A stretch of 35,839 nucleotides of DNA from a virus. The translations under genes and the position numbers were made by a program. Of the stretch, positions 53 through 35,839 are shown in pieces. Each line of letters starts with the position of its first letter. The stretch's first letter is position 1. Location: IMG/VR virus record IMGVR_UViG_3300026531_000007, positions 1-35,839 of that record; one strand, 5' to 3'. The notes under the pieces are model-generated. The model did not search any database, was not told the origin of the DNA, and worked only from the letters and a program-made list of their open reading frames with translations.

Positions 53-125
53 GCCCCCATCGTCTAGTGGCCCAGGACGCGGCCCTCTCAAGGCCGAAAC
101 CGGGGTTCAAACCCCCGTGGGGGCA
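53..125 (+). tRNA. tRNA-Glu (anticodon CUC)
   Basis: A full cloverleaf can be drawn. The acceptor GCCCCCA pairs with TGGGGGC. The anticodon stem CGGCC/GGCCG holds the loop CUCUCAA with anticodon CUC. The T stem is CGGGG/CCCCG with loop TTCAAAC, and the discriminator is A. CCA is not encoded. The 3' 14 bases lie inside the attachment core, so phage insertion leaves the tRNA intact. Its transcript now runs into the phage terminator at 164-186 instead of its own, which is 35.5 kb away at 35693. Confidence 0.95.
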
Positions 126-127
126 CA
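112..127. repeat. attL core (16-bp direct repeat)
   Basis: The 16 bases CCCCCGTGGGGGCACA are identical at 112-127 and 35676-35691, and the flanks diverge at once on both sides. The repeat covers the last part of the tRNA T stem and the acceptor 3' strand. The central GT of the C5-GT-G5 block is the likely two-base crossover for a serine recombinase. Confidence 0.9.
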
Positions 128-129
128 GT

Positions 130-141
130 TACATAGGCAAC
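130..141. other. Right inverted arm of attP (in attL)
   Basis: TACATAGGCAAC is the exact reverse complement of the 12 bases at 35659-35670. In the excised circle the two arms flank the core, 23 bases apart. It is phage-derived because it lies inside the repeat-bounded element. Confidence 0.8.
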
Positions 142-163
142 TTTTTAGCCTTCCCATTAAAAA

Positions 164-186
164 AGCCCGCTCATCATGAGCGGGCT
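164..186. terminator. Bidirectional intrinsic terminator, prophage left end
   Basis: A perfect stem (AGCCCGCTCA/TGAGCGGGCT) with a 3-base loop is flanked by an A tract on the left and a T tract on the right, so it can act on both strands. In the lysogen it ends the minus-strand late operon and also the tRNA-Glu transcript. In the circular phage it would also end the recombinase transcript. The stop codon of the last late gene (174-176, minus) and the phage-form recombinase stop (177-179, plus) are adjacent within it. Confidence 0.85.
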
Positions 187-401
187 TTTTGCGCTTTTTT
201 CTCGCAACACTGCTTCCGAATACGACCGAGGTCGCAGGCGATGGCGAACAGCCGCTCTTCCACCGTCATCGCCTCCCACTCCTTACACGAGTACTTCTTC
301 TGCCGCCTTTCGGCGTCCTTGCGCAGTTCCTTCAGGCGAATGCGTTTGATCTTTGCCTTACCTCGTTGCTTCTTTTTCTTCTTCCGCTCTTCGTTACTCA
401 T
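174..401 (-). CDS. Small basic phage protein, last gene of late operon
   Basis: 75 residues, very rich in lysine and arginine (a KKKKK run near residue 6), with three cysteines. I do not recognise the family. The ATG at 401 is preceded by GAGGAGG six bases upstream and overlaps the previous gene's stop by 8 bases, which decides this start over a longer in-frame one at 458. The charge suggests nucleic-acid binding, but that is inference. The stop lies inside the bidirectional terminator, so this is the true end of the late transcript. Confidence 0.65.
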   Translation of the reverse strand: MSNEERKKKKKQRGKAKIKRIRLKELRKDAERRQKKYSCKEWEAMTVEERLFAIACDLGRIRKQCCEKKAQKARS

Positions 402-732
402 CGATGACCTCCTCGACAGCCGTGGGCGGCTGCTCGTATTCCGGATCGTACCAATCAACTACAGTCACATGCAAATCACCCGATTCGTCGGTTTCTGCAA
501 TTACAATAGGGTTAGCAGGCAGTACGGTAACCTCTATTTCAGCCAGCTCTTCCGGAGCAAGCTCAGAGAGAGAAAATTCTTCTGATGCTATTTCTGTTTC
601 TTGTGTTACCGCACCCGTGTCGTCACGTTCGACCTCAAAGAGGTGCGCGACCAGAATCCTACCCGGCAACCAGATGTATTCCAAGCGCAATCTTGGTAGT
701 CCGGCTTGTGGAACTTTTTTGAATTTAATCAT
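394..732 (-). CDS. Acidic late protein after tail fibre
   Basis: 112 residues, acidic in the C-terminal half, no signal peptide or membrane segment. The start ATG at 732 has GAGGTGA upstream. It lies 8 bases after the tail-fibre gene. The position directly downstream of a receptor-binding protein is where tail-fibre accessory or assembly genes often lie, but the sequence shows no known domain. Function is unknown. Confidence 0.7.
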   Translation of the reverse strand: MIKFKKVPQAGLPRLRLEYIWLPGRILVAHLFEVERDDTGAVTQETEIASEEFSLSELAPEELAEIEVTVLPANPIVIAETDESGDLHVTVVDWYDPEYEQPPTAVEEVIDE

Positions 733-34099: not shown

Positions 34100-35691
34100 A
34101 TGAACGCCCAACATCCCCTTCCCCCAGGCACCCCCGTCGCCGCCTACCTGCGCGACAGCGGCGGCGAAGAACAAGAACTCTCCCTTGCCCAGCAAGAAAC
34201 CGAAATCCGCGCCTGGTGCCAGTCCCAGGGCTTTGCCCTCACCCGCATTTTCCGCGACGAAGCCCGCCCCGGCTCCTCTACCGTCGGGCGCACCGGCTTC
34301 CAGGCCATGATGCGCCATTTCCGCAGCGGCCAGGCCCCCGAAAAAGCCCTCATCATCTGGAAATACTCCCGCTTCTCCCGCGACATTGACGACGCCCAGT
34401 TCTACCGTGCCGACCTGCGCCGTCGCGGCATTCAAGTCATCTCCCTCCACGACCAAATACCCCAAGGCCCCGCAGGCCGCCTCTATGAAGCCGCCCTCGA
34501 CTGGATGAACCAGCAATTCCTGGCCGACCTCTCCACCGACGTCAAGCGCGGTCTGCGTCACATCGTTGCCCAATACGGCTGCGTCCCCGGCACCCCGCCC
34601 CGCGGCTTCCGTCGTGTTCCCATCCACATCGGCAAGCGCCGCGACGGCACCGACCATACTTGCCACCGATGGGAACCCGACCCCGACCTCGCCCCCCTCA
34701 TCCGCCAAGCCTTCGAAATGCGCGCTGCCGGAACGCCCGTTTCCCAAATCCACGCCAAACTACACATTTACCGCGCCCTCAACGCCTACACCACCTTCTT
34801 TCGCAACAAACTCTACATTGGCATTCTGGAATACGGCAGCGAAACCTACGAAAACTACTGCGAACCCATCGTCCCCATCGAAACCTGGCAAACCGTCCAG
34901 CGCATCATGGACGACCACGCCGCCCGCTTCGGCAAACGCCACCCCCGCCGCGTCAACTCCCCCTTCCTCCTCAGCGGCCTGGCCTACTGCGGGCGTTGCG
35001 GCGCACCCCTCTACGGCCACGTCACCACCCGCCCCGGCAAAGGCCGCGACGAAGCCTACCGCTGCAGCCGCGCCAAACGTAAAGCCGGATGCAACGCCCC
35101 CCGCATTCCCCGTCACACATTAGAACAAGCCGTGCTGGAATCCCTCACCCAGCATATCCTCACCCCCGAAAACCTGGCCCAAATCCAGCAGGCCCACCGC
35201 GCCGCCATCCAGCGCCAACAAACCGAACGCAAGTCGCAAATCCGCGCCCTGCACAAACAAAAGCGCAGCCTGCAACAGCGCATCACCAACATCACAACTG
35301 CCATCGCCCAGGCAGGCCCGCTCCCATCCCTACTAACCGAACTCAAAGAACTGGAAACCCAAAAAGCCGTCATCGAAGCCCAACTACAAGCCCTCCAGCG
35401 CCTGCAACCAGAAATTCCCGAACTCACCCCCGCAGAAATCACCCAAATCTCCCAAAAACTGATACACTACATCCAGCAAGCCACACAAGAAGAAAAGCGC
35501 CAACTCCTCCGCGGCCTCATCGCCAAAATCATCGTCTCCCGCGAAGGCGACCACATCGAAGGCACAATCCAATACTACACCCCCTTCGCCCAACCACCGC
35601 CCCCTTTCCCACCAACCCCGAGGGGGCCTGACCCCACCGCCCCCACCCCCTCGGGGATGTTGCCTATGTACTTCTCCCCCGTGGGGGCACA
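34100..35691 (+). CDS. int: Large serine recombinase (integrase), 3' end altered by integration
   Basis: 530 residues up to the att core. The resolvase catalytic domain has the nucleophile S20 (AAYLRDSGGEEQELSLAQQ) and the arginines of KYSRFSRD (~88-95). The recombinase domain follows (CVPGTPPRGFRRV near 161), then a zinc ribbon with C297, C300, C322 and C331, and a coiled coil (~350-410). In the lysogen there is no stop before or within pfkA: the frame stays open through attR and the terminator to the pfkA ATG. In the circular phage it would end at 177-179, giving about 547 residues. It sits at the att site and is the likely integrase. Confidence 0.92.
35659..35670. other. Left inverted arm of attP (in attR)
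   Basis: GTTGCCTATGTA is the exact reverse complement of 130-141. It lies inside the recombinase coding sequence, five bases before the 16-bp core. Joined in the circle, the two arms give a near-symmetric attP about 47 bases long. Confidence 0.8.
35676..35691. repeat. attR core (16-bp direct repeat)
   Basis: Identical to 112-127. To the right comes host sequence: the tRNA's own terminator, then pfkA. Confidence 0.9.
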
Positions 35692-35692
35692 C

Positions 35693-35717
35693 GGCGGCCT
35701 TTTCAGGCCGCCTTTTT
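35693..35717 (+). terminator. Original tRNA-Glu terminator, now downstream of the recombinase
   Basis: GGCGGCCT and AGGCCGCC form an 8-bp stem with loop TTTC, followed by five T. Before integration it stood just after the tRNA. In the lysogen it limits recombinase transcripts entering pfkA. Confidence 0.85.
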
Positions 35718-35723
35718 GTTTTC

Positions 35724-35732
35724 TGGTACAAT
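35724..35732 (+). promoter_or_regulatory. Host pfkA promoter (extended -10)
   Basis: TGGTACAAT is a TGn-extended -10 located about 40 bases before the pfkA ATG. It sits after the terminator, so pfkA keeps its own promoter in the lysogen. No -35 match is seen. Confidence 0.5.
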
Positions 35733-35773
35733 TTTTCCGCCTTTATTCGTCATTTTCCCCAGGAGCAAACGCC

Positions 35774-35839
35774 ATGCCTCGTCTTGGCATTCTCACCGGC
35801 GGCGGCGACGCCCCCGGTCTCAACGCTGTGATTCGCGCG
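35774..35839 (+). CDS. pfkA: 6-phosphofructokinase, N-terminal part
   Basis: The first 22 residues, MPRLGILTGGGDAPGLNAVIR, carry the glycine-rich nucleotide-binding start GILTGGGDAPGxN of phosphofructokinases. AGGAG lies eight bases before the ATG. The window ends inside the gene. Whether it uses ATP or pyrophosphate cannot be told. It is host DNA, in frame with the recombinase ORF upstream. Confidence 0.9.
   Translation, partial: MPRLGILTGGGDAPGLNAVIRA

Follow-up and report, generated by a model that had tools for sequence, protein, structure and literature searches.

A phage attachment site inside a serine recombinase gene whose conserved C-terminal codons would be exchanged for host sequence upon integration

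In integration-dependent immunity, as described for mycobacteriophage BPs and Bifidobacterium Bb423phi2, attP lies in the repressor gene and integration removes an ssrA-like tag (PMC4557955, PMC6109161). In the archaeal suicidal integrases of SSV1, pTN3, and pT26-2, attP lies in the tyrosine integrase gene, an arrangement reported to be exclusive to Archaea (PMC8371274). For SV1, attP is located downstream of the integrase gene (PMC4068962). In large serine integrases, site choice and directionality are under the control of the zinc domain and coiled coil (PMC3783163, PMC5814800); in LI integrase, a terminal beta-hairpin extends the sheet of the zinc domain (PMC3783163), and the phiC31 RDF acts through the zinc domain (PMC5814800). 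A literature search with partial coverage and limited terms turned up no report of a bacterial serine integrase gene that contains attP. Here, we analyzed a window of 35,839 nucleotides, a provirus record in IMG/VR, in which the attP core falls within the gene for a large serine recombinase.

The prophage appears to have integrated at a tRNA-Glu (CTC) gene by means of this recombinase, with attP in the 3' part of the recombinase's own gene. A pattern search with the tRNA-Glu matched three Anaerolineales MAGs and, judged by this match, the host is an Anaerolineales (Chloroflexota) bacterium. The family of these MAGs includes G042, the host of a prophage (attL on contig C21) whose recombinase is 83% identical over the body at the protein level. 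The 16-bp core, CCCCCGTGGGGGCACA, is the 3' end of the tRNA-Glu (CTC) gene, and the attP arms GTTGCCTATGTA and TACATAGGCAAC form an inverted repeat around it. The features of the integration site are as follows, in window positions.

53 to 126, plus strand: tRNA-Glu (CTC), the integration target, intact at attL (ARAGORN; the attL of the G042 relative has the same tRNA-Glu)
112 to 127, no strand: 16-bp core, attL copy, identical to 35676 to 35691; same core in G042
128 to 142, no strand: attP right arm, GTTACATAGGCAACT, read from the sequence as an inverted repeat of 35659 to 35670; the arm in G042 is the same (GTTACATAGGCAAC)
174 to 458, minus strand: convergent ORF at the phage left end, no known family in a family search
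35610 to 35662, no strand: inverted repeat with 17-nt arms in the linker DNA, partly overlapping the attP left arm; kept in G042
35659 to 35670, no strand: attP left arm, GTTGCCTATGTA, read from the sequence as an inverted repeat with 128 to 142
35676 to 35691, no strand: core, attR copy, within the recombinase ORF and reading PVGA; identical to 112 to 127
35774 to 35839, plus strand: start of host pfkA, in the recombinase frame by chance (tRNA-Glu adjoins pfkA in relatives L106 to L108 and L110)

In L082 and L197 (G039), the tRNA-Glu is followed by CAGTTGCGTAGGCAAAC, a sequence similar to that of the phage left arm. Phage genes are absent from the vicinity, and this is possibly a remnant attL.

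The recombinase gene itself can be divided into a body, a linker, and two alternative ends.

34100 to 35584, plus strand: large serine recombinase, conserved body with resolvase, recombinase, zinc ribbon, and coiled coil (Pfam, alignment, and fold matches of relative L243)
35585 to 35675, plus strand: linker before the core, in frame; its length in relatives differs by multiples of 3, and the L243 model shows it as disordered
128 to 179, plus strand: last codons of the phage form, QLHRQLFSLPIKKARSS, the first codon shared with the core, stop TGA at 177 to 179; severed by integration and conserved with the phage-form tails of relatives
35692 to 35773, plus strand: host-encoded replacement tail of the lysogen, 27 whole codons, no stop; not conserved among lysogens

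The resolvase, recombinase, and zinc-ribbon domains of a large serine recombinase were all found (PF00239, 1.7e-20; PF07508, 7.2e-07; PF13408, 3.3e-16). The motif residues are conserved in the alignment, and activity on attP x attB is putative. Every Pfam domain lies 5' of the core, so the catalytic protein is not split by integration. The original prediction had placed attP inside this gene and claimed that its frame runs open into pfkA, and both claims hold: the core at 35676 to 35691 is within the ORF from 34100, and direct reading of the frame from that ATG gives no stop through attR to the window end at 35839, past the pfkA ATG at 35774, which is in the same frame 558 codons on. The predicted stop in the circular phage is likewise seen upon joining 35691 to 128; this phage form ends with the TGA at 177 to 179, 17 codons beyond the core, and encodes 547 amino acids. 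From the sequence, then, integration takes off the recombinase's last codons and its stop, as had been proposed.

A sequencing error that hides a stop had been named as one condition that would undo this reading. In G042, the body-to-core length and the frame are equal to those of the window at 83% protein identity, which makes such an error unlikely, and we ruled it out as the source of the open frame. The window alone is nevertheless weak evidence because 48% of dinucleotide shuffles leave this frame without a stop between the conserved end and the pfkA ATG; about one-third of the open shuffles would share the pfkA frame.

A role for the junction with pfkA, which the original prediction described, is not supported by comparison with other hosts. 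The right flank in G042 is not pfkA; there, the frame continues for about 55 codons to a stop immediately ahead of a gene named recN-like on the basis of its sequence, and other flanks differ again. At L110, a relative's empty tRNA-Glu/pfkA site, the frame read by eye stops at a TGA at the pfkA start, so the join looks accidental. We give next to no credence to a recombinase-PfkA fusion protein that changes glycolysis in the lysogen: the frame is open into pfkA, but a terminator and pfkA's own ribosome-binding sequence and ATG intervene, a stop is expected in the relative's empty pfkA site, and the different flanks in other hosts rule out the fusion as a function. Because host flanks vary and only 7 or 8 of 16 junctions lack a stop, both the pfkA join and the absent stop before the tRNA terminator are, on this sequence comparison, incidental to the insertion site.

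Two hairpins flank the exchanged segments.

35692 to 35716, plus strand: terminator hairpin of the host tRNA-Glu, displaced to attR (inverted repeat)
160 to 190, no strand: bidirectional terminator-like hairpin with the phage-form stop in or next to its loop (inverted repeat)

In the phage, the hairpin at 160 to 190 would act as the terminator of int. In the lysogen, it would act for the host tRNA-Glu, and int would be served by the host terminator at 35692 to 35716; the two terminators would thus be exchanged.

Non-stop mRNA ends and tmRNA tagging had been offered as one way in which integration could lower the recombinase level or activity: lysogen transcripts would end at the tRNA terminator without a stop, and tagging would remove the protein. 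The window frame is indeed open through the hairpin at 35692 to 35716, and the same is true of L086, L115, L118, L134, L168, and L177 (and of L123, out of frame), although the terminator call in L086 is weak. However, in the other 8 of the 16 junctions (L125, L127, L135, L136, L137, L138, L142, and L126), the frame meets a stop upstream of or within the hairpin. Because nearly half of the junctions have one, the missing stop is not a conserved feature; this rules out non-stop mRNA as a conserved mechanism, and such a switch is very unlikely to operate here.

Relatives of the recombinase were found by a whole-genome search after the host tRNA-Glu match and, in large numbers among viral_contigs, by profile scans; a single-protein search with the window recombinase against viral_contigs and genome_contigs gave no match, nor did the records of terminase relatives. 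Recombinase relatives at an E value of <=1e-20 are carried by 39 of 400 genomes of the order, and in many of them the gene runs into the 3' end of a tRNA gene, in the same or the convergent orientation. Within the window's clade, the distance between the conserved end and the core takes many values, but the core is nearly always in one reading frame, whereas in a second clade (clade C), all cores but one are in another frame. We reconstructed phage-form tails of individual elements by joining attR and attL and collected 32 phage contigs, including the joined phage form of the window, in which a tRNA-Glu-like core is followed on its right by 800 or more bases. The presence of phage genes or a continuing contig rightward and the absence of a tRNA suggest that these contigs are circular. 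In 24 of the 32, which have an intact attP and include the window's phage form, the ORF reads through the core without a stop in the same frame and ends 15 to 30 codons past it, with the consensus P-V-G-A-x-[LI]-[YH]-R-[HQ]-x-[FI]-[ST]-[YF]-[PE]-[FVI]. The frame through the core is kept while the linker length changes by multiples of 3. Four contigs have the core in a second frame and still keep the tail in frame because the arm is one base closer; in the remaining four, and in L126, a stop precedes the core. L116 and L120, first listed as lysogen junctions, have phage-like tails and may be unintegrated. By these comparisons, a recombinase gene with an internal attP is a real and recurrent architecture in a group of phages.

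Several relatives depart from this pattern. In L126, L247, and L301, an in-frame TGA in a shared context, TTGACTGC, stands before the core and the conserved tail continues in frame, which suggests read-through, recoding, or a recent nonsense mutation. The tail is also conserved in L218 and L225, but in a frame shifted from that of the int body; nine consecutive A residues occur in L225, so an indel error or frameshifting is possible. In seven relatives (L087, L119, L121, L130, L131, L133, and L139), the recombinase converges on an opposite-strand tRNA (Arg, Glu, or Thr), with the ORF ending inside or adjoining the tRNA gene. In one genome, G236, several related copies or fragments of the recombinase lie at tRNA-Glu cores (contigs C31, C41, and C45). 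Across attP from int in clade C, the next gene encodes a small HTH_17 excisionase-like protein (Pfam match in the three tested); the set comprises the elements L134, L135, L137, L138, L141, L142, and L169, with attL sides at L152, L154, L161, L157, L181, L159, and L178, and also L274. The ribosome-binding site of this xis-like gene overlaps the last codons of int, and integration would split the int-xis-like operon, leaving the xis-like gene just downstream of the tRNA.

The post-core codons could be conserved as protein or as DNA. If the recombinase recognizes the outer attP half-site, protein likeness could be a by-product of conservation at the DNA level; half-sites of about 25 bp are known (PMC3783163), and the codons for the YRQ/YRH residues lie in the inverted arm TTGCCTAT / ATAGGCAA. 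Codons 3 to 5 past the core therefore give no protein evidence, as they are also attP arm DNA, and part of the clade C similarity that had been taken as protein signal was reassigned to attP arm DNA and the ribosome-binding site. As a result, the main test rests on the clade A codons beyond the arm. We chose codons 8 to 13 past the core, which lie beyond the 25-bp half-site. Their mean pairwise BLOSUM62 score per residue was +0.09 in frame versus -0.92 and -1.09 in the other frames, and 0 of 5,000 random-frame draws reached the in-frame value; the same frame test on nine genome junctions, mostly lysogen, gave a p of ~0.2 to 0.3. A profile built without the window scored the window's phage tail at 5.0 (reached by 0.4% of shuffles) and its lysogen tail at -2.1; the G042 phage tail was weak, at -0.4 (reached by ~5% of shuffles). 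Conservation as DNA is thus quite unlikely as the explanation, given that it is frame specific beyond ~27 bp from the core center, that second codon positions vary least at hydrophobic positions, and that no in-frame stop occurs before codon 15 while the other frames hit stops. Taking these signals together, the post-core residues are, at the level of sequence, conserved as protein among the phage forms of relatives.

A conserved tail could still be of no consequence once lost. Under a purely compact gene layout, attP would overlap the 3' end of int, the tail would be translated, and its loss in the lysogen would not matter. Lysogen tails among relatives do vary freely, from none to ~60 and even 194 residues, so excision apparently tolerates any tail, and some relatives end before the core. 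Yet in-frame conservation beyond the attP arm across 24 divergent phages is not expected of a functionless peptide, the frame is kept through linkers of many different lengths, and a strand is predicted in two clades, all of which makes this layout rather unlikely as the whole account.

To examine the tail in the context of the fold, AlphaFold models of two relatives were used. For the L243 phage form (43-sequence alignment), the model has strands at 478 to 486, 489 to 498, and 522 to 529; the last block has a pLDDT of 88, and the disordered linker before it (505 to 519) holds the core. The clade C phage form L273 was modeled, less confidently, with strands at 476 to 481, 485 to 490, and 522 to 527. 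Overall pTM values of the two tail models were low (0.45 and 0.38). In Foldseek, the L243 model matched 9y66, 9dxh, Bxb1 (9iu2), and phiC31 (9rah) at E values of ~1e-15 to 1e-16, and it is through this relative's model that the large serine integrase fold was found. Because the solved zinc domain ends in a beta-hairpin and the phiC31 RDF acts there, the extra post-core strand probably belongs to the zinc domain.

We favor, with a probability of about two in three, the explanation that a conserved C-terminal strand is swapped for host residues so that the enzyme differs before and after integration. By sequence, the frame in the circular phage crosses the core and ends 17 codons later in a conserved tail, and these residues are predicted to form a final beta-strand after the C-terminal hairpin of the zinc domain, joined to the body by a flexible linker that carries the core. 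The strand-bearing phage form would carry out attP x attB; integration, by sequence, swaps the conserved post-core codons for host residues. The only gene copy at induction encodes the lysogen form, so excision would have to begin with a tail-swapped enzyme that lacks the strand. The strand could thereby make the two states differ in activity, stability, or site-pair preference. The tail swap is well supported by sequence comparison, and an effect on activity or directionality may follow from it. The integration-dependent switch of the original prediction thus stands in part: because the removed codons encode a conserved peptide with a predicted beta-strand, a change of enzyme is plausible, whereas the pfkA fusion and the non-stop/tmRNA mechanism fall away. 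It is possible, if doubtful, that the tailed phage form is the integrase and the tail-less form is excision competent or permissive, with the strand serving as an intrinsic determinant of directionality in place of, or in addition to, an RDF.

How serine integrases are prevented from reversing their reaction is a central question, and their use as tools is built on it. By construction, the two reactions in this entire group of phages would start from two proteins of one gene. If the strand matters, it would provide the zinc domain with an element for directionality or stability that can be tested, and would extend integration-dependent switches from repressors to the recombinase itself. For annotators, integrase C termini taken from prophages would be partly host sequence.

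The locus shares features with each of the known systems. Like large serine integrases (A118/LI, phiC31, and Bxb1; PMC3783163, PMC5814800), it has their domain order, a zinc domain with an embedded coiled coil, a final beta-hairpin, and an inverted-repeat attP adjoining int; unlike them, its target is a tRNA gene. In contrast to SV1, the ORF contains attP and continues past it to encode a further predicted strand. As in the archaeal suicidal integrases, attP is inside the integrase gene, which is split by integration. However, the enzyme is a serine rather than a tyrosine recombinase, and the phages are bacterial, with an Anaerolineales host rather than an archaeon; where the archaeal enzymes are cut into inactive halves, only the segment after the known domains is lost here. 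The likeness to phages with attP in the repressor gene, which the original prediction had drawn, is apt in that the removed codons encode a conserved peptide with a predicted beta-strand: attP is near the 3' end inside a phage gene, the virion and prophage alleles differ at the C terminus, and the form of the protein depends on integration. The gene there is the repressor, whereas the core here lies in the recombinase ORF. The tail lost there is an ssrA-like degradation tag, whereas the one lost here is a conserved predicted beta-strand ending in basic residues (by eye, the phage form ends in KARSS and relatives end in basic residues, with no Ala-Ala). By analogy, then, this arrangement would be one that works like integration-dependent immunity, in the gene of a suicidal integrase, with a different enzyme family.
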